From a virus: a DNA stretch of 29,707 nt. Position 1 is the first letter of the stretch. Every line of letters begins with the position of its first letter. The DNA lies in IMG/VR virus record IMGVR_UViG_3300037558_000912, positions 1-29,707 of that record, one strand, 5' to 3'. The position numbers were made by a program, and so were the translations under genes. Below, piece by piece: positions 3,557-18,641 of the stretch. Under the pieces are notes generated by a model. The model was given only the letters and a program-made list of their open reading frames with translations. It made no database searches and had not been told where the DNA came from.

Positions 3557-5665
3557 CTAAGGGTTCAAATTAACATTGGTTGATGAAACTGTCTTCAAGG
3601 TCGAGCCTGACGTTGTCAAAGACACAAACATTGGATCAGGAGTTATGGTCGCCGCCGCGGATCTGTTGCCCTGATTGTTTATAGCAAACACACTGACTTT
3701 GTGTGCCTTGGATCCCCTTAGATCAAACTCCATGAATTTGAATATGATATCTCCACTGGCATTGGTTGCAACGGTGCTTGCCAGTTGCGTGAAGAACCTT
3801 GTGTCTGACACAGGATCACCCACACGCAGAACCGCAATCTGGTATGACACTATGTTGGTGTCAGCGGATGGTGTGAATGTTAGACTGCCCAATTGATGTT
3901 TGAAACCTACGACGGCAAACCTCAGTGATAGGTTGACTGAATTTGCTGTGTATTGTAGATTTGTTGCCGGGGACACAGCCGCCAAAGGGTTTGGCAGATT
4001 TATAACTGGTCTCGTGGCCGCGATTGACTTGGCCGCAATGGCATAATTTGTAGGTTGATGTTCAACAGCACCGATCATTATATCTCCACCGGCGTCTATC
4101 TTCATCTCAACGATTCTGAAAACACCACTCAATCCAATATGTTCGTTGGCGATGTTTATGAGGTCTCCAACACCTGTGTTAGATGTTGCCAATGTTGTGC
4201 CGAACTGCACATATTTTGAAGTCCTAGATCTTTTCGTGAACACCTCGCCATACTGTAGAGCCTGTTCTCTGCTGGTCACTGTTGGTAGAACTATCTCTTT
4301 CTGTAATCTCTTGCCGTCGTCCTCGGCCAGCATCGCCACGTCAATGGCACTGCCCTCTTCAGGAAAAACCACTTGGTTGGGTTGATATGAAACATTGTCA
4401 TCTGCACCTGGATCGACGAAGGTCACAACACATCTGTTTATTTTTGCGTTCTTGTGTTCTCCCTCTAGACTCATGCCTCCGACTATGTGATCGTTAGTGA
4501 TGCTGAACACTGTTGCGGGATTGGCCGGTGTTGCTGTGATGTCTGTGTTATCACCACCGTGTTCTATCTGTAATTTGTATTTGCCCTGTTGGTATGGCAT
4601 GATACCTCTGAAACCCATCAGCAGGATCTTGCAATTGGCAAGGATGCTGTTAGCCGTGTTGATCACGGAATTTGAAGTGAATGCTTTGCCTGTTGTTGAA
4701 CTGGTGTATGTCACCGTCTGGTCACACAGGTCCGCCGCTGACTTGAAACTGGCGAAATCAAATGCGTCGTTGGCCAGTCCTTTTCCGTATCGGTCGGATC
4801 TCATGTAGTCGAGTAGGACTGACACAGGGTTGTCGTCGAACACCTCTGTCTCGTTTGCATACAATGTTGAATGACTGCCACTCAGTGTTGTGGCATCCAA
4901 TATCTTCTTGCCCTGTAGCACTAATTTTATGTTTGGTATGCCGCCGGTGTAAGGATTGTTGTTGGCATCGTCCTGGTCCTTGATCTCTTTCCATTCGAAC
5001 CTACAGGCGATATGACAGAGTCCTGACAGTCTGTGTAGATTGGTCCAACCTGGAGCACCACCTGAACTGTCTATGTCTGAGAACACGCCTGAACCATCAC
5101 TGGCACTGGATTGATTATCTCTGCCGTCAAAGAATTGAACTTTCATCCTGTCCTTGAAATCTCCTGTTGATGGTTCGGCCACGACTCCGTGTGCATACGA
5201 AGTAAGTGTGACTTCTGCGTCATCAACTAATAATTTTGTGAAACCATTGCACTGTCCTTCTGCCAACACCATGTCGACATAAAGGTATTTGTTGTTTGTT
5301 CCATTTGTGGATACGAAAACACGAGTGCCTCCGACCATTCTAGTCCCATACACCACAGGAATGTGTTCAATGGCCGACTGTTTGTTCAGCATCACTCCTT
5401 GTATGTCTGATACCTGGTCTGTGCCTATTCCAAAGTCTGGTGTGTCAATGTCAAATCCGAAAGGTGAAGTGATGGCAGACACAAGTCCGCTGAACACCTT
5501 GCCCACACCTCTGACAATGCTCTTGAAGACTTTTGCTATTGGTTTGAATATTTTCTTGATAGGATTACCTCCACCACAATTGGCTATTGGCCCAGAGTAT
5601 TCATATGAATCCTCTTCTATGATGTTGTCATCTTTGTCTAAGACTATCTTGTTGTAGATCTTCAT
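3557..5665 (-). CDS. gpJ-like tail tip / host specificity protein (702 aa)
   Basis: Position, size and sequence fit a lambda gpJ-type central tip protein, which closes the tail tube and contacts the host receptor. The N-terminus (MKIYNKIVLDKDDNIIEEDS...GPIANCGGG) is followed by an amphipathic, basic helix (about residues 36-68, IKKIFKPIAKVFKSIVRGVG) that could touch the membrane. Residues of about 100-200 carry the hub-like segment IPVVYGTRMVGGTRVFVSTN and a long run of beta strands. A fibronectin-like part is likely after about 590. It is shorter than lambda gpJ (over 1100 aa), so receptor binding may be shared with the downstream fibre genes. It overlaps the acetyltransferase gene at 5662 by four bases (ATGA). 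Confidence 0.8.
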   Translation of the reverse strand: MKIYNKIVLDKDDNIIEEDSYEYSGPIANCGGGNPIKKIFKPIAKVFKSIVRGVGKVFSGLVSAITSPFGFDIDTPDFGIGTDQVSDIQGVMLNKQSAIEHIPVVYGTRMVGGTRVFVSTNGTNNKYLYVDMVLAEGQCNGFTKLLVDDAEVTLTSYAHGVVAEPSTGDFKDRMKVQFFDGRDNQSSASDGSGVFSDIDSSGGAPGWTNLHRLSGLCHIACRFEWKEIKDQDDANNNPYTGGIPNIKLVLQGKKILDATTLSGSHSTLYANETEVFDDNPVSVLLDYMRSDRYGKGLANDAFDFASFKSAADLCDQTVTYTSSTTGKAFTSNSVINTANSILANCKILLMGFRGIMPYQQGKYKLQIEHGGDNTDITATPANPATVFSITNDHIVGGMSLEGEHKNAKINRCVVTFVDPGADDNVSYQPNQVVFPEEGSAIDVAMLAEDDGKRLQKEIVLPTVTSREQALQYGEVFTKRSRTSKYVQFGTTLATSNTGVGDLINIANEHIGLSGVFRIVEMKIDAGGDIMIGAVEHQPTNYAIAAKSIAATRPVINLPNPLAAVSPATNLQYTANSVNLSLRFAVVGFKHQLGSLTFTPSADTNIVSYQIAVLRVGDPVSDTRFFTQLASTVATNASGDIIFKFMEFDLRGSKAHKVSVFAINNQGNRSAAATITPDPMFVSLTTSGSTLKTVSSTNVNLNP

Positions 5666-6117
5666 GCTATGACTGGTTTCCTATAATAATCTATGTGATG
5701 TTCGTATCCTAATCTTTCATAGAACCTCTGCATCTGTTTGTTGTTCTTGCCAAATCCATAACCTATATAAACTTCGCAGGCACCTTTCTCTTTGGCCCAT
5801 TTGTAAACGGCCTTGTATAATTTTATGCCTAGAGAACCTGTCCTGTATTGAGGCTTCACATAGAAGAAGATATCTTGCACATAGGTTTCGTATGAGAAAT
5901 CATACTGATTCAATCCACAGGCAGTGCCTCCTATGATTTCACCTTCCTGTTCCGCCACCAACACACAGAAATCAGGATTGCCTATGCTGTTGAGATAATA
6001 ATTCTTAACACGCTCAATGTCAAAGTGTAGATGACTCCACAGGCTTTCGGCGTGTTGCTGTTTGGCCATTTCACAGCATTGTTTTAGGTCTTTCCTAATG
6101 AATGGTCTAATGGTCAC
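5662..6117 (-). CDS. GNAT-family N-acetyltransferase (151 aa)
   Basis: The whole GNAT fold can be followed. Strand beta-4 (VQDIFFYV, 80-87) is followed by the acetyl-CoA pyrophosphate loop QYRTGSLGIKL (90-100, a clear Q/RxxGxG/A motif) and helix YKAVYKWAKEKGA; later come the ACEVYIGYGFG strand and FYERLGYE (132-139). Such enzymes transfer acetyl from acetyl-CoA to an amine. The substrate cannot be read from sequence; the tail location raises the idea of modifying a tail protein or a host surface sugar. The gene overlaps its neighbours at both ends and is co-transcribed with the tail tip genes. It sits where lambda has gpK and gpI. Confidence 0.88.
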   Translation of the reverse strand: MTIRPFIRKDLKQCCEMAKQQHAESLWSHLHFDIERVKNYYLNSIGNPDFCVLVAEQEGEIIGGTACGLNQYDFSYETYVQDIFFYVKPQYRTGSLGIKLYKAVYKWAKEKGACEVYIGYGFGKNNKQMQRFYERLGYEHHIDYYRKPVIA

Positions 6118-6571
6118 TTACCTTCTCCCAGTTTATGTCTATCTCGTCAAATCCGTTCTTGATCAGGAATGACATTCTATCTTGTTTGTTGTTGAACAAG
6201 TATGAATTCGAACTTGTTCTTATGTGTCTGATTCCATTTTCACTACAGAACGCATATATGGTGTCTAATAACAATTGGTAGTATGCCTCGTGTCTGTGGT
6301 CTGTGTCCATGTGTATGAGATCTATGTGGCATTTCTTTTTTGTGTTCCATGGAAACTGATCTATCTGTGCCACTGCGAATCCTACCAATAGAGCGTCCTT
6401 GAATAGACCAAATGCTAGATTGGTCTCCAGTGATAGAATGTTTTTAACCTGTATGTTGAAATTGGTCTTTTCAAAATCTCTATCTACCCAACCTCTTTCG
6501 ACCACTGCCCTGTATGCCAAGTCTAAAACCTGTGCGATGTCTTTTTTGTCCAATACTCTTACTATGTTCAT
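6107..6571 (-). CDS. second GNAT-like acetyltransferase, degenerate CoA loop (154 aa)
   Basis: The architecture follows GNAT enzymes: MNIVRVLDKKDIAQVLDLAY at the start, LVGFAVAQI as a central strand, then HIDLIHMDTDHRHEAYYQLLLDTIYAFC, where strand beta-4 and the CoA-binding helix belong, and FLIKNGFDEID near the end. The usual RxxGxG/A loop is replaced by DHRHEAYYQ, so CoA binding may be weak or lost. ATG 6571 was chosen over an in-frame ATG at 6586 because GGGGGA lies at good spacing before it and its first base overlaps the previous stop (TAATG). It overlaps the next acetyltransferase by 11 bases. The two may act together or derive from one duplication. Confidence 0.75.
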   Translation of the reverse strand: MNIVRVLDKKDIAQVLDLAYRAVVERGWVDRDFEKTNFNIQVKNILSLETNLAFGLFKDALLVGFAVAQIDQFPWNTKKKCHIDLIHMDTDHRHEAYYQLLLDTIYAFCSENGIRHIRTSSNSYLFNNKQDRMSFLIKNGFDEIDINWEKVSDH

Positions 6572-7152
6572 TATGCTTTCCCCCATCTGATGTCTTTTAC
6601 TAATTCCGGTGCGAACTCCATGCCCTGATCGTTTGCGAAATGCACCTGTTGTGATGCTGGGTTGGTTTTCCTGCCATTTGTTCTTTCAAAGTCAGCGAAC
6701 TGTGACGCACACGATATCGTGACCGTTGCTGTTTCGTTTGACTCTCTGATTGAATATCCTGTGACCTTGCCATCAAACACTAGATACACATCATCTGTGC
6801 CGAATGAATAATCACTGCCTAGTATCGCCCTATAGATCACCACTCTCTTGTTGATGTAATCATTGTTGGTCAACAAAGCGATTGTTGTGGTATCCACCGC
6901 GGTGAATTCCATGTCTATCTCCGCTATCCTAAGGTCTGTTGTCTCTACGATGTTTCCATAACTTAGGAATTGACCTTGTGCTAGATATGTTTGTGCTCCT
7001 GCGTCAGGTGCCGTCGCACTGTCAAATGAGATGTTGATGTTTGTTGTTGTAAGGTATTGTGTTGTTGATAATTGTAGTTCAATGAGATCAGCAACAAATA
7101 CTGAACTGCCTGCCAACTTTGTCTGAGTCGCGGACGCTATGCTTCTTGCCAT
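6571..7152 (-). CDS. gpL-like minor tail / tail hub protein (193 aa)
   Basis: The protein begins with a short Ser/Ala-rich segment, then LIELQLSTTQYLTTTNINI and a series of beta strands. It ends with CASQFADFERTNGRKTNPASQ and DQGMEFAPELVKDIRWG. The FERxxGRxTNxxSQ...DxGMEF ending is characteristic of tail hub proteins at the lambda gpL position (DUF2163/gpL-like). These proteins sit between the distal tube end and the gpJ-type tip. Lambda gpL carries an iron-sulfur cluster in its C-terminal domain; here only one cysteine is seen, so no cluster is expected. The gene follows the gpM-position gene by two bases. Confidence 0.75.
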   Translation of the reverse strand: MARSIASATQTKLAGSSVFVADLIELQLSTTQYLTTTNINISFDSATAPDAGAQTYLAQGQFLSYGNIVETTDLRIAEIDMEFTAVDTTTIALLTNNDYINKRVVIYRAILGSDYSFGTDDVYLVFDGKVTGYSIRESNETATVTISCASQFADFERTNGRKTNPASQQVHFANDQGMEFAPELVKDIRWGKA

Positions 7153-12541: not shown

Positions 12542-12575
12542 AAAAAAAAGGCCCCATATTCCTACAGGGCCTTTT
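12542..12575 (-). terminator. Rho-independent terminator after the major capsid gene
   Basis: On the minus strand AAAAGGCCC (12567-12575) pairs with GGGCCTTTT (12546-12554) around a 12-base loop. Eight T residues follow on the minus strand (12542-12549, partly within the stem). It lies 28 bases after the capsid stop codon and fits a terminator that sets capsid mRNA level. Confidence 0.88.
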
Positions 12576-12602: not shown

Positions 12603-13463
12603 CTATGATATAGTCGCGTCCGTTGGCACTTTGATACCGTATGTGTCATGTAATTCACTCACGCCATATGTGGCAGTGCAAATTACCTCAGTCGCTCTGG
12701 CACTTTCGTCCCGTTGAGTTCTGATTTGGATATCATTACCGATTGCTAAACCTAAGGCGTCTCTTGCGAATACACCGTTCACGCAAGATGTAGCCGAGTC
12801 AGCCACAACATTTGAAGATTCAAAGATATCGATACCTGCGATTCTTCCCACATAACCTTCAGTCATTGCTTCGTTTACAACGCCTGTGTTTCCTTGTGGA
12901 ACGAATGTAGATGTCATTACTTTCTTCATGTTGAAGATTGACGCCGGGTTGAACACACCGAAGTATGGTCCTGGCACGCCTGCATTTTTAAGTTTTGCCG
13001 CCGCCGCAAATAAGTGAGCCGCTGTCATCTCTGATTGAGTGTCAGTTGCTGAACCTAGTGCGAAAGTTGAGAAGCCTGAGAATAGAGCAGTTAAGTCCTG
13101 GTCCATTTTCTTAGCAACAGCCTCACCGAACAATTTACCTAAATCAGCGATCACATTTGAACTTGAAAAGTTAAGAGACAAGTCCGAAACATTTGTTCCG
13201 ATACCTGCTTCTGCTAATGTGATATCTTTTTTAGAAGTAGAAATTGCACCTAGTGTGATGTCGTCTGCTTCTGTTAATGCCGCCGCTGTTTGCGCCGGGT
13301 AGATTGGAACCTGTAAAACTTTTCCTGCGTTTCTTGGCACAGTGAAGTTTTTTACAAGGTTTCTCATTACTGATCTTTCTGATGCAACGAACATCGCCTC
13401 TTGGACGATGGGTGCTAAAAGATCATCTAATGTTGAAGTTAATGATTTGATTTCTCCAGCCAT
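12603..13463 (-). CDS. major capsid protein, HK97 fold (286 aa)
   Basis: The sequence has the expected parts of an HK97-fold capsid subunit. An N-terminal helix (SLTSTLDDLLAPIVQEAMFV) is followed by the E-loop region (VLQVPIYPAQTAAALTEADD, then the ITLGAISTSKKDITLAEAG strand). The A- and P-domains come next (a long helix around SSNVIADLGKLFGEAVAKKM, then AAHLFAAAAKLKNAGVPGPY) and the C-terminal strands end GVSELHDTYGIKVPTDA. There is no N-terminal delta domain and no protease in the operon, so the scaffold is probably separate and the shell is not proteolysed, as in P22-like systems. A strong AGGAG precedes the ATG, and a terminator follows the stop. Confidence 0.88.
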   Translation of the reverse strand: MAGEIKSLTSTLDDLLAPIVQEAMFVASERSVMRNLVKNFTVPRNAGKVLQVPIYPAQTAAALTEADDITLGAISTSKKDITLAEAGIGTNVSDLSLNFSSSNVIADLGKLFGEAVAKKMDQDLTALFSGFSTFALGSATDTQSEMTAAHLFAAAAKLKNAGVPGPYFGVFNPASIFNMKKVMTSTFVPQGNTGVVNEAMTEGYVGRIAGIDIFESSNVVADSATSCVNGVFARDALGLAIGNDIQIRTQRDESARATEVICTATYGVSELHDTYGIKVPTDATIS

Positions 13464-13493: not shown

Positions 13494-14204
13494 TTACCTT
13501 ATGCCTTGTTTCTTACGATACTCGGCGTAAAGTTTTCTGTGTTCTGGATTTGTCATGTCCAGTTTAGCGATATCAACATCTAGAGGAGCATCAGTTTGTG
13601 TGTTAGATTTACTACCGCCACCTGCTGGTCCGGCCTGGACGAAATGAGGATTGCTCTTTAAGAACTCTTCTACTAATCCATCTACAGACAAGGCTTCACC
13701 TGTGTCAGAGTATCTTGTTTGTCCAGTCTTAGAATCGACTACTTCTACATCACCGGCTTCTGACATTCTAACTTGTTCTCTCACAAGTCTCACGACTTGT
13801 TCAGGACTGATCGCTCTCTTTGTTGAAGCACTATTCAATAACGCTCCATCAACTTTGATCTTTGTCAGTTCACCTGTGAGTGAAGTAATCCTAGCATTGG
13901 CTTTCTCAGCCTGTTGCTGTAAGATCTTTTCAAACTCACCTTTCCTCTTTTGCTCGGCCATTGTGGCCTGTTCTTCTTTAGCAACTAAGGATTGATACTT
14001 CTCAACATCCACACCGTCAAACTTTCTTAACACCTTTGATTCTTCAGTCTTTCGAACTTTAGAAGCAATGGCATCAACTTGTTCTTGGGTATAGGTTTTA
14101 GGTTCTGTTGATACCTCTTCCTGCGATGGCGTGTTTTTTATGACTTCCGGTTGAACAGCAGTGTTTTCAACTTTAGTGTCTATCAATGATTCTTCTTGTG
14201 TCAT
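13494..14204 (-). CDS. capsid scaffolding protein (236 aa)
   Basis: This is a typical scaffold: acidic, low in aromatic residues and helical. The N-terminal part (about 1-35) is acidic and disordered, then KTYTQEQVDAIASKVRKTEE gives the common YTQEQVDAI motif of phage scaffolds (DUF4355-like). A coiled coil runs to about 115 (EQKRKGEFEKILQQQAEKAN). The C-terminus is basic and helical (HRKLYAEYRKKQGIR), as expected for the coat-binding end. ATG 14204 was chosen over GTG 14210 because AGGAG lies nine bases before the ATG but only three before the GTG. It lies directly before the capsid gene. Confidence 0.85.
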   Translation of the reverse strand: MTQEESLIDTKVENTAVQPEVIKNTPSQEEVSTEPKTYTQEQVDAIASKVRKTEESKVLRKFDGVDVEKYQSLVAKEEQATMAEQKRKGEFEKILQQQAEKANARITSLTGELTKIKVDGALLNSASTKRAISPEQVVRLVREQVRMSEAGDVEVVDSKTGQTRYSDTGEALSVDGLVEEFLKSNPHFVQAGPAGGGSKSNTQTDAPLDVDIAKLDMTNPEHRKLYAEYRKKQGIR

Positions 14205-14529
14205 CGTCACTTTCTCCTTTTTTGTTTAGGTCTGATCTGACCTCATTGTGTTTATATTTACCGCTCATACGACCATCTTTGTAGTTAAAAGGATTTATAG
14301 GTTCCTTCCCCACATTCTGTGATGGAGCATAGAGCGACAGCAATTCAAGTCCAAGGGCGTGTGCCACTGACTTGATATTAACAAGAGCCTTCCTTGCCCT
14401 AGTGGCAAATCTCATTGAAGGGTTCTTCATTAATTTCTCTTGATTGGAGAAATACTCCAAACATAATTTCTTAAATTGTTCGTGCCTTGCTGATTCGACC
14501 GGCTGTCTGTATAATCTTCTTTTGACCAT
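14173..14529 (-). CDS. hypothetical basic protein in the head module (118 aa)
   Basis: The protein is basic and largely helical: MVKRRLYRQPVESARHEQFK at the N-terminus, then RFATRARKALVNIKSVAHAL (a probable amphipathic helix) and a hydrophilic tail, KYKHNEVRSDLNKKGESDDD. Its C-terminus overlaps the scaffold gene by 32 bases. A TAGGT box lies before ATG 14529, and the stop of the preceding gene is six bases upstream, consistent with translation in series. No family was recognised. Small basic proteins in this place can be DNA-binding or scaffold-associated factors. Confidence 0.65.
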   Translation of the reverse strand: MVKRRLYRQPVESARHEQFKKLCLEYFSNQEKLMKNPSMRFATRARKALVNIKSVAHALGLELLSLYAPSQNVGKEPINPFNYKDGRMSGKYKHNEVRSDLNKKGESDDDTRRIIDRH

Positions 14530-14535
14530 TGTGAC

Positions 14536-14799
14536 CTATCTCCAGGCCTTCAGGCTCCAGTATGCTGGTGAAAGGTTCTTCTGTCCTTTGACCGCTTTCA
14601 GTATTGGTGTGAATCTTGCGATGAAACTTTTCTTTCTCGCAGGTATGTTTTTCTTGATGCTCATACCCTTCTGTCCAAACCTCACTATGTTCACTTTGCC
14701 TGTGGATCTGTTTCTGACATACACGCCACTCTTTTTAGAAGCGGTTGGTGTCCTGAATGGTTTGTTGAGTGTGACCGTCCTGCCTTGATATTTTGCCAT
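14536..14799 (-). CDS. small basic phage protein with SIKKNIPARKKSF motif (87 aa)
   Basis: The protein is basic, with KYQGRTVTLNKPFRT at the start, a short beta stretch (VYVRNRSTGKVNIVRFGQKG), then the motif SIKKNIPARKKSFIARF and an ending LSPAYWSLKAWR. That motif and ending (SIKK-PARRKSFRARH ... ARYWSxKxW) recur in marine tailed phages in head modules; their function is not established. ATG 14799 was chosen because AGGAG, overlapping the speD-like stop codon, lies just upstream. The frame is open a further 26 codons upstream but would overlap the speD-like gene. Confidence 0.7.
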   Translation of the reverse strand: MAKYQGRTVTLNKPFRTPTASKKSGVYVRNRSTGKVNIVRFGQKGMSIKKNIPARKKSFIARFTPILKAVKGQKNLSPAYWSLKAWR

Positions 14800-14807
14800 T
14801 GTGTCTC

Positions 14808-15272
14808 CTACTTGTAGATGAAAGGATCTCTCTTCCTTAATTTTTCTATTTGATTGTAGTATTTGTTGTCCCACCAACTCAGTTCGTTGTCATCTATGTT
14901 CTTGAATCCGTTGTTCCTGTCCATGAACTTGTAATCTAGTTTTTCTATGTCAAACTGTGCCAACCACATGAATATGTTCTTGATGGCGAATGGTTTACAC
15001 GAATACACATCCAGTTGTATCAAGCCTGTCTTCCAACTGTGGAATGTGATTGAACTTGTATCAATTATGGCCACCGAACTGTATCCTTCATTGCCTTCTT
15101 TGTCTGACCATTCAGTGTGTGGTCCTGAAAGGATGTTCATGTCAATTTTTTTGATCAGACTTTTCATCTCATCATCTAGTTTCTGTCTGTCCTTGAACAG
15201 AGGTGGAGCATTGACTTCCGCTCTTACTATCAGGTGTTTGTGATCTAGTGTTGGTGTCATTGGGCTATCCAT
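14808..15272 (-). CDS. speD: S-adenosylmethionine decarboxylase-like proenzyme (154 aa)
   Basis: The core aligns with SpeD enzymes. DTSSITFHSW (71-80) matches the cleavage segment xESHISIHTW, placing the pyruvoyl-forming serine at S73, and H78 matches the catalytic His. LDVYSCK (87-93) matches the LDVFTCG strand with the catalytic Cys at C92. The conserved Glu before the serine is Thr72, and the loop between is one residue shorter. SpeD enzymes self-cleave and decarboxylate S-adenosylmethionine, giving the aminopropyl donor for spermidine. Polyamine supply for DNA packaging is a plausible phage role. Start: ATG 15272 has AGGA five bases upstream; ATG 15260 overlaps the previous stop (ATGA) and is an alternative. 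Confidence 0.8.
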   Translation of the reverse strand: MDSPMTPTLDHKHLIVRAEVNAPPLFKDRQKLDDEMKSLIKKIDMNILSGPHTEWSDKEGNEGYSSVAIIDTSSITFHSWKTGLIQLDVYSCKPFAIKNIFMWLAQFDIEKLDYKFMDRNNGFKNIDDNELSWWDNKYYNQIEKLRKRDPFIYK

Positions 15273-15672: not shown

Positions 15673-15858
15673 CTACTTCCGCTTTTTGCTTTTTTGGCCA
15701 TTTGCTGGTCCTCCTATGTTTAATTTGTTTGCCCACCATCCGACCCAATCCTTAAAAAAGCATTTCACCTTTCGAGAAGACTTTCGTCTCAACTGCTCTA
15801 GAAGTTTTTCAATCTTGTAGATTCTTGTTTTTAAGGAATTAGTCTTGCTGGGTTTCAT
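15673..15858 (-). CDS. small basic protein after the portal gene (61 aa)
   Basis: The protein is very basic: MKPSKTNSLKTRIYKIEKLL, then EQLRRKSSRKVKCFFKDWVG, WWANKL and a Lys/Arg-rich end, QKSKKRK. A short coiled-coil helix precedes an amphipathic CFFKDWVGWWANKL segment. ATG 15858 is preferred over ATG 15906 because AGGA lies at workable spacing and the overlap with the portal gene is then only 20 bases. No family was recognised. It lies directly downstream of the portal gene. Confidence 0.6.
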   Translation of the reverse strand: MKPSKTNSLKTRIYKIEKLLEQLRRKSSRKVKCFFKDWVGWWANKLNIGGPANGQKSKKRK

Positions 15859-17398
15859 TGCCAAAGTATCCTGCCATCTCTGGATGAAGTTGTTTGATCT
15901 GTTCATCCGTATAACCCTGTTCTACCATCTCTCTTAGATGTTTGACCATGTCATCTACATTGGCCATCGGTGGATGGTCTGTTGTAGTGTTTAATGGTTG
16001 TGGGTTGGTCATATCTGCTAACTCGTCTTCGTCTTTTGCAAGTATTTCTTTGGTTTTGTTGTCTATGATTTGTTTCACATCAGGCGAGGCATTCATTGAA
16101 TCTCTCTGTGTAGCCGCCGCTTTCTGTAATAGGTCCATGTCTAGGTTCTTGTCTCTGATATGGAATGCCATTGGGTATTTGACTGATCCTGTCCAAGGTT
16201 GTCCTTGCCACAGGCTGAACATTCTCCAAATTTGTTCTTCTGCTAATTCTAGGTTCTTGGCTTTTTCACATAGTTTCGCGTCAAGCAAGATGAACTCCGA
16301 TTGCATTGCCACGCCTGACATCTGTCTTGTCTCTATGGCCCTGATGGCGCCTAGGTGTGCCTGTCTGTCTATGTTTTGGATTGTCGCTTCTATCGTTTTC
16401 AGTATGGCATCTAGGTTAGAGCCATTTGGTTGTAGAAGATAGGGACGAGTCTCTGTCGTCACTGTGTCACTCATTGTTATGATCGCACCTGCACCTGCAC
16501 TGGCTTCTGTCTCTCTGTCTTTGACCAGTGTTGGGTGGTTGGTCAATCTAATAAGTTGTTCTGCTTCTGAATAAAGTGAGAACAAGAAGTTCTGGTTGTC
16601 TGCTATGTCGCCTATGTCTGAAACTCCTATGCCTCTGATTGGGGACCTGTTTGCATAACACCATACCGCTGGTATGACACCCAATGGGTTTGGTTTTGAT
16701 TCAACTAGTTCTAATGGTTTTTCTTTCTTTGAATCATATGATTCAAGATATATCATGTCCTTGGTCCAAGTCCTTACATGGTAAGCCGCTGACTTCCTGT
16801 TTGTTCTTATGTCCTGTTCTAGGAATTTGACATATTGTAATTCGTAATGGCCTGATGGTAGTCTATCCCAATGCCAATCTATTATGTTTTCTGGTGTGTA
16901 TAGTGTGGCATATGGTCTGATGCCTTGTTCTAGTTCTTCTGCCCTTGTGCCAACAGTGGTCTCTGGACGATCGATTAAAATGCAACAGTGTCCATAGATT
17001 GAACTCGTGATGTTGACGTCTCGCATGAATGATTGCCAACTCCTGCCTTCCATGTCAGCATCTTTCAAGAAGTTCTCTACCTCAGGCGATCCTGCGAGGT
17101 TGCCCAGTTCTCTCTTTGGCTCGTTCCTGTATAGGAAACTGTTGTAGATGTGTATAATACTTTTAACATGGTTGTCTAATGGTGTCTGTCTTAGTCTTGC
17201 TACGAAATCGCCTTCTGTCTCATACACATACCTTGTCAGGTATTTGCCCATCTTGTATTGCACACCACCTAGGTATGATCTCATCAAGTATTGCCATCTA
17301 GGAATGTATGCTGAATATTCGCTGTGAACAGGAAGTCCTTCTGTGTGGTAATTCTGATCCTCTGGACTTTGGTTTAATAGATAATCTTGGTTTGCCAT
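15839..17398 (-). CDS. portal protein (519 aa)
   Basis: The protein has the size and organisation of phage portals close to DUF4055. The N-terminal part (MRSYLGGVQYKMGKYLTRYV) precedes a stem-like region, FVARLRQTPLDNHVKSIIHI, and then IYGHCCILIDRPETT (about 136-150). The segment NPLGVIPAVWCYANRSPIRG leads into a long helix with FLFSLYSEAEQLIRLTNHPT, both common in portals. The C-terminus is acidic and Gln-rich (YTDEQIKQLHPEMAGYFGNE). Portals form the 12-fold ring at one capsid vertex, through which the terminase pumps DNA. The ribosome binding site AGGAG lies in the last codons of the terminase gene, so the two are coupled. Confidence 0.85.
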   Translation of the reverse strand: MANQDYLLNQSPEDQNYHTEGLPVHSEYSAYIPRWQYLMRSYLGGVQYKMGKYLTRYVYETEGDFVARLRQTPLDNHVKSIIHIYNSFLYRNEPKRELGNLAGSPEVENFLKDADMEGRSWQSFMRDVNITSSIYGHCCILIDRPETTVGTRAEELEQGIRPYATLYTPENIIDWHWDRLPSGHYELQYVKFLEQDIRTNRKSAAYHVRTWTKDMIYLESYDSKKEKPLELVESKPNPLGVIPAVWCYANRSPIRGIGVSDIGDIADNQNFLFSLYSEAEQLIRLTNHPTLVKDRETEASAGAGAIITMSDTVTTETRPYLLQPNGSNLDAILKTIEATIQNIDRQAHLGAIRAIETRQMSGVAMQSEFILLDAKLCEKAKNLELAEEQIWRMFSLWQGQPWTGSVKYPMAFHIRDKNLDMDLLQKAAATQRDSMNASPDVKQIIDNKTKEILAKDEDELADMTNPQPLNTTTDHPPMANVDDMVKHLREMVEQGYTDEQIKQLHPEMAGYFGNETQQD

Positions 17399-17402
17399 TG
17401 TG

Positions 17403-18641
17403 TTATGCTCCTGTTCTTACCGTAAATCTTTGCGGTGCTGTTGTTGTAAAGTCTCGTGTGACAGGGTATAAGAATGAAATCAAATATCCTAATGCGTCGT
17501 TCATATGGTCTAATCCTTGTGACTTGTCTGGCAACGAAGTTCCTTCTTTATAACATTGTTTGCTAATACTATTTAACATATTCTTGGTTCGAGGGTGGAA
17601 GATAACGCTTCGTATGCCTGCTGACGAACATAGTTTAGAATTCACTGAATTGATCCTGTCTCTGACCGCCATGTGTCTGGTAGGCACCTTGCACACGAAT
17701 CCGGCATTCTGTAAAATTGAAAGATCGGTCTTGCCACCCGCTGATGTCCTTCTCTGTCTTGAAGCAGGATCTGGATACACCACTATCTTCTTGTTCTTGT
17801 ATCTGTTGTGTATCTCTTCTACCATCTCTTGTGTGTTTGAACTCCATATCATTATCTCATCAATAACATACACTATATTGTCCTTGATGTATGTGACCAC
17901 TGCACTCATTGGATCAAGGTTGAAGTCCATTCCAATGTGTAGTGTTGTCACATCACTTGGCACTTCAAAATGTTTGACATTGTGTTCTATGCTGTGTGAA
18001 TAATATATGATGCCTGAAAATGTTTCCCAGGTGCTTTCGTATTCTTGTCTGAATGTCTTGGCATCGAGATCCTTCTTTGCTTGATCGATCTCGGTCTGAT
18101 CAACCCAACCACCTTGCAGTGTGGTGTATAGCCAACTTGACCATTCTTGTTCTGTTTGATCTTGTCCCTTCTGATACAGGTCGTGGAACCAGTTCATGCC
18201 TTTTGGTGTGCCACAGAATACTGCCCTACCTTTGGTGTCTGACAGTGTGGGCCTAAGGACTTGGGTGAATGCACTCTCTGAAATATCTGCACACTCATCC
18301 ATCACCAATAGGTCTATACCAACACCCCTCAATGAGTCTGGGTTGTCAGCACCCCTCAGACAGATCCTCGATCCGTTCTTTAGGAATATTGTTAGTTCTG
18401 CTTCGTTGATCTTCTTGATCCATTTAAGGTCTTGTAAAATTTGTTTGACTTTGACCCATGCGATTTGTTTTGCTTGACGGTAAGATGGTGCCACATACCA
18501 ACAAACCCTGCCGGGTATCCTTGCGACATAACATAGTTCTCTAATTGCTAGTGTGGTTTTGCCAAATCGTCTGCCAGTGACTAAGACCTTGAATCTGCTT
18601 GTATCCTTAGCCACTACCTGTTGTGGTTCAGATAGTTTCAT
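17403..18641 (-). CDS. terL: terminase large subunit (412 aa)
   Basis: Both catalytic parts are visible. The ATPase has Walker A GRRFGKTT (23-30), Walker B DLLVMDE (110-116, catalytic Glu116) and the coupling motif FCGTPKG (142-148). The RNase H-like nuclease has GMDFN (Asp239), a VIDE segment (261-262), YPDPAS (Asp291) and LDHMNDALGY (Asp378, Asp382). TerL translocates DNA into the prohead with ATP and cuts the concatemer. The length is typical, perhaps slightly short. It follows TerS by nine bases and precedes the portal gene, the standard order. Confidence 0.96.
   Translation of the reverse strand: MKLSEPQQVVAKDTSRFKVLVTGRRFGKTTLAIRELCYVARIPGRVCWYVAPSYRQAKQIAWVKVKQILQDLKWIKKINEAELTIFLKNGSRICLRGADNPDSLRGVGIDLLVMDECADISESAFTQVLRPTLSDTKGRAVFCGTPKGMNWFHDLYQKGQDQTEQEWSSWLYTTLQGGWVDQTEIDQAKKDLDAKTFRQEYESTWETFSGIIYYSHSIEHNVKHFEVPSDVTTLHIGMDFNLDPMSAVVTYIKDNIVYVIDEIMIWSSNTQEMVEEIHNRYKNKKIVVYPDPASRQRRTSAGGKTDLSILQNAGFVCKVPTRHMAVRDRINSVNSKLCSSAGIRSVIFHPRTKNMLNSISKQCYKEGTSLPDKSQGLDHMNDALGYLISFLYPVTRDFTTTAPQRFTVRTGA

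Follow-up and report, generated by a model that had tools for sequence, protein, structure and literature searches.

Described relatives of the phage gene

The protein AXH71538 of phage HTVC201P, named 'AdoMetDC' (S-adenosylmethionine, AdoMet, decarboxylase), is a pyruvoyl-dependent arginine decarboxylase, which decarboxylated arginine alone among ornithine, lysine and arginine and failed to restore spermidine in an E. coli delta-speD strain (PMC9992855). According to PMC10407285, this enzyme groups in one clade with the pyruvoyl-dependent ornithine decarboxylases (ODCs), SpeDC. The latter are described from phages LBP and UCP01-04 and from bacteria and archaea, and in the published SpeDC pattern the gene neighbours that of spermidine synthase, while the genome encodes another SpeD as well.

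The gene analysed here, speD in the following, lies in a 29,707-nucleotide stretch of viral DNA (the window). Its product resembles the HTVC201P protein in family, catalytic residues and marine phage origin, as well as in the Thr before the pyruvoyl serine ('TS') and the loss of the AdoMetDC Pro. However, the two are only 34% identical, the HTVC201P protein has no C-terminal extension, and its gene is located between exonuclease and ribonucleotide reductase genes, whereas the window gene is in the head block. The SpeD proteins of the Pelagibacter phages HTVC104P and HTVC115P share 43-47% identity and the same motif with the window protein, but are encoded one gene after the DNA polymerase. The likeness to SpeDC lies in the clade and in the genomic context; the pattern around the cellular relatives of the window gene is that of SpeDC. 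The SpeD of cyanophage S-RSM4 and its kin is also a phage-borne member of the class 1b family; unlike the window protein, it has the canonical 'ESH...HTWPE' motif and is distant in the tree, and in S-RSM4 its gene lies between g45 and g44.

The gene product, its catalytic residues and its fold

The open reading frame from 15272 to 14808 is a real gene (Table 1). Its product matched the Pfam family AdoMet_dc (PF02675; E 1.1e-10, 42.3 bits against a curated cut-off of 25) and phrog_3125, 'S-adenosylmethionine decarboxylase' (E 1.9e-12). In most SpeD pairs that could be measured, dN/dS was 0.05-0.17 (0.33 in one pair; synonymous sites were saturated in many others), which argues for strong purifying selection and for a gene far beyond chance. 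Because the relatives begin at a Met that aligns with M5 of the window protein, the true start is probably at 15260, where it overlaps the stop of the preceding 121-aa gene as ATGA; counted from M5, the residue numbers used here (S73, H78, C92 etc.) fall by 4. No defence-system model matched speD or three of its small neighbours.

Table 1. Features of the speD locus and the surrounding head block (positions in the window).
Feature	Position	Strand	Basis or remark
Terminase large subunit	17403..18641	-	phrog_2, E 3e-46
Portal protein	15839..17398	-	phrog_145, E 2e-60
Small gene after portal, 77 aa	15673..15906	-	kept in many relatives
Small gene directly upstream of speD, 121 aa	15257..15622	-	conserved in most close relatives
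SpeD-family (AdoMet_dc) pyruvoyl-enzyme gene	14808..15272	-	154-aa ORF; Pfam, PHROG, model
Codons T72-S73, predicted self-cleavage site (S73 to pyruvoyl)	15054..15059	-	alignment with T. maritima E62-S63
Codon H78, equivalent to T. maritima H68	15039..15041	-	invariant, n=124
Codon C92, equivalent to T. maritima C83	14997..14999	-	invariant, n=124
Basic protein of small size (87 aa when started at ATG)	14536..14799	-	phrog_7595
Small gene between speD and scaffold, 118 aa	14173..14529	-	conserved in most relatives
Head scaffolding protein	13494..14210	-	phrog_206, E 5e-14
Major capsid protein	12603..13463	-	PF25209, E 5e-9; phrog_544
Hairpin resembling a terminator (13 pairs and a following T run)	12546..12575	-	consensus match only; directly after capsid gene

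The window protein carries the motif AIID-T72-S73-SITF-H78-SWKTGLIQLDVYS-C92. In a profile alignment S73, H78 and C92 corresponded to S63, H68 and C83 of the T. maritima AdoMetDC, which PMC10407285 gives as processing and catalytic residues, and T72-S73 stood opposite E62-S63, with Thr in place of Glu62. The alignment thus agrees with the original prediction, which had noted the cleavage serine, the His and the Cys and also the absence of the Glu before the serine. Among 124 aligned proteins, collected from viral contigs, reference genomes and phage records, S73, H78, W80, D88 and C92 were invariant, and a search for homologues that had lost S73 or C92 yielded none. The pyruvoyl serine was preceded by Thr in 121 of these proteins and by Glu solely in the three canonical AdoMetDC references (two from cyanophages and one bacterial SpeD1). 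Since Thr is found in all 121 clade proteins and Glu in the AdoMetDC references only, the alignment indicates that the absent Glu is a mark of the clade and not a defect or loss of the window gene.

When the single window protein was compared with the PDB by phmmer, only a weak match was obtained (E 0.31); the alignment profile detected the Aquifex AdoMetDC at 3e-6. The AlphaFold2 model, built from an alignment of the window protein with the proteins of the fetched loci, had a mean pLDDT of 87.9 and a pTM of 0.80. Its best PDB matches in Foldseek were 1vr7 and 1tlu (T. maritima AdoMetDC, E 1.4e-6), followed by the Aquifex, potato and human AdoMetDCs, and its superposition on 1tlu gave Z 12.7 and an rmsd of 2.3 over 109 residues. 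As modelled, the window protein has the class 1b SpeD/AdoMetDC fold, the outcome expected when comparison of a predicted structure with AdoMetDC was first proposed. A C-terminal extension (SWWDNKYYN...DPFIYK; 14808-14920, minus strand) is specific to the window clade and absent from pelagiphage SpeD; it is partly helical in the model, at lower confidence.

Location among the head genes

The gene order on one strand is terminase, portal, two small genes, speD, two small genes, scaffold and major capsid, confirming the placement of speD between portal and scaffold that had been read from the sequence. From terminase to capsid the genes all point the same way with little space between them, and the capsid gene is followed by a hairpin of terminator type, so that their co-transcription is plausible; in this region 8 terminator-like sites were found against 5.4 expected. 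The promoter scan gave 13 sites against 13.9 in shuffled sequences, and no late promoter could be named. The phrog_7595 gene is downstream of speD in the window and in contigs L026 and L030, and upstream of it in L008. In phage HTVC111P a phrog_7595 gene was located upstream of the terminase (L017:3511-3771).

To follow the synteny, every locus was compared with the proteins of the window. In 25 contigs, with 21 distinct SpeD proteins, the portal gene was upstream and the scaffold gene downstream of speD on the same strand; some of the contigs counted may share a viral population, and L012-L015 are identical in SpeD protein. At least one of the two genes was in its proper place in 32 contigs, and on the wrong side in none. 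The syntenic contigs span all parts of a 20-row clade (support 100/93), and the synteny reaches down to about 46% SpeD identity to the window (L074). Placement within the head operon is a trait of the clade, and the conserved synteny that had been suggested as a check is present in related contigs. The related phages HTVC111P and DSL-LC06 have other small ORFs and no speD in the portal-scaffold slot; this slot is variable and may simply tolerate cargo.

Elsewhere, speD is found between exonuclease-region and ribonucleotide reductase genes in pelagiviruses, and in cyanophage S-TIM54 among hypothetical genes, adjoining a tail fibre gene. In the cases examined, including those of HTVC104P, HTVC115P and S-RSM4 described above, the speD genes of other phages are not part of the head block and for the most part sit with replication genes, so that the contrast drawn in the original prediction holds for them.

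The 121-aa gene, the phrog_7595 gene and speD also occur together in L031 and L032 (G015; two data sets). In L031 this cassette lies upstream of the gene for another, unrelated major head protein (phrog_3437), after which come tubular-type tail proteins (phrog_394 and phrog_376), and these tail families suggest a podovirus-like phage. The remainder of L031 (29.7 kb) has almost nothing in common with the window except a 29-residue tail match, and its speD shares 85% DNA identity with the speD of L026, which carries the head genes of the window. This implies that the cassette has probably moved between unrelated head modules, staying beside capsid genes.

Substrate and possible role

We consider it likely that speD encodes a self-processing pyruvoyl-dependent amino acid decarboxylase of the class 1b SpeD fold, which uses ornithine or arginine and is expressed late with the head block. 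The proenzyme would cut itself between T72 and S73, S73 would be converted into the pyruvoyl cofactor, and H78 and C92 would assist, as in T. maritima AdoMetDC. In the tree, 73 rows, including HTVC201P and the window, were split from the 3 AdoMetDC references with support 100/99. The characterised members of this clade, of which the missing Glu is a signature, decarboxylate ornithine or arginine. Membership of this SpeDC/HTVC201P-type clade suggests a neofunctionalised enzyme, the substrate of which would most likely be L-ornithine (yielding putrescine), or else L-arginine (yielding agmatine), and not AdoMet; putrescine or agmatine is thus the likelier product.

Ornithine is the favoured substrate, to which we would give somewhat less than an even chance, because the cellular relatives fit the SpeDC pattern and HTVC201P falls outside the larger group formed by the window clade and these relatives. 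In five small gammaproteobacterial genomes the homologue adjoins a spermidine synthase gene, and three of the five have a second, class 1a-like SpeD (two of the three were rechecked). In a deltaproteobacterial genome a window-type SpeD, a canonical SpeD and SpeE are encoded in a row. The cellular genomes with SpeD relatives may be incomplete. Agmatinase (arginase-family) and OKR-type decarboxylases gave no matches in the five gammaproteobacterial genomes, which are possibly incomplete, and each of these has one alanine-racemase-fold decarboxylase, possibly LysA. The four residues diagnostic of ODCs are Gln, Thr, Phe and Tyr (PMC10407285); the candidates in the window protein, by column counts, are Q86, T72, F95 and Y90, a mapping that is a guess. 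A tblastn search of the phage collection, made with two queries, did not bring up the assayed phage ODCs (LBP, UCP01-04; proteins ATV46410, QMP83838, CAB5221556, CAB4131572 and CAB4162964). The second SpeD of the small gammaproteobacterial genomes L158, L159 and L160, which accompanies the class 1b homologue, is divergent, and in L158 and L159 it scored 38-44 bits against TIGR03331, well under the cut-off.

A sub-case of the same reading, in which the enzyme is an L-arginine decarboxylase like that of HTVC201P and the agmatine is converted to putrescine by host enzymes, is possible and rather less probable than ornithine. Among pelagiphage enzymes, detailed assays exist for that of HTVC201P alone, which is specific for arginine among three amino acids, and SAR11 has the enzymes downstream of agmatine (PMC9992855); moreover, the head genes of the window are related to those of SAR11 phages. 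However, HTVC201P lies outside the group of the window clade and the cellular relatives with ODC context, in a tree with an unsure root and very long outgroup branches.

It is improbable that speD encodes a true AdoMet decarboxylase feeding a host spermidine synthase. The matching Pfam and PHROG families bear this name, the automatic annotations of the relatives imply the same, the fold and catalytic residues agree, and the five gammaproteobacterial relatives adjoin spermidine synthase. However, the protein scored only 28.9 bits against TIGR03330, the NCBIfam AdoMetDC equivalog, far below the cut-off of 75.65; Glu62 is replaced by Thr; the assayed clade member from HTVC201P is without AdoMetDC activity (PMC9992855); and a further SpeD, resembling class 1a, is encoded in some of the gammaproteobacterial genomes. 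In addition, the diagnostic Pro is lost. PMC10407285 reports one Pro that is fully conserved in true AdoMetDCs and not conserved in arginine decarboxylases. We take this to be the Pro in HTWPE; at this position, after 'HTW', the window protein has K81, and there is no W-P in the clade motifs listed. The scan of window proteins, which took in part of the small ORFs, revealed neither speE nor agmatinase. Thus, of the original description of a speD-like gene, the family and fold stand, and the AdoMetDC reading is not supported: the label 'speD' in that sense is probably wrong for the window gene. Still less probable is the relic of a proenzyme, or a protein with a structural or regulatory task in which the fold persists and decarboxylase activity has gone. 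In its favour, the window clade has Ser (S74) in place of the His that follows the pyruvoyl serine, and an extra C-terminal tail; but the catalytic residues are invariant (n=124) and purifying selection is strong. The change to S74, like the loss of the Glu from 'HTWPE', also counts against the preferred ornithine or arginine decarboxylase.

For the preferred ornithine or arginine decarboxylase, late expression is probable because the gene is inside the portal-scaffold-capsid block, and a late enzyme would provide diamine to the infected cell during DNA packaging. Packaged DNA is neutralised by polyamines, and the head-block placement fits such a role. Phage polyamine genes are usually viewed as general metabolic helpers. 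Polyamines aid phage replication, partly via translation (PMC9992855). In a phage with a compact genome, however, the linkage of genes says little about what they do. That this is a head-linked decarboxylase lineage, exchanged with capsid genes, whose diamine neutralises incoming DNA at packaging time, is a speculative and rather doubtful proposal; in this proposal, the clade-specific tail might even serve to anchor the enzyme on heads during assembly. Across its clade speD keeps to the capsid block, down to a protein identity of about 46%, and an unrelated phage also has it next to its capsid gene. The long-standing notion that polyamine supply is timed by phages to coincide with DNA packaging thereby becomes testable. 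For marine viromes this means that 'speD' labels often do not denote an AdoMet decarboxylase. The tail block of the window also contains two adjacent GNAT-type acetyltransferase genes (phrog_1249; 5662-6117 and 6107-6586, minus strand), one of which could in principle act on polyamines.
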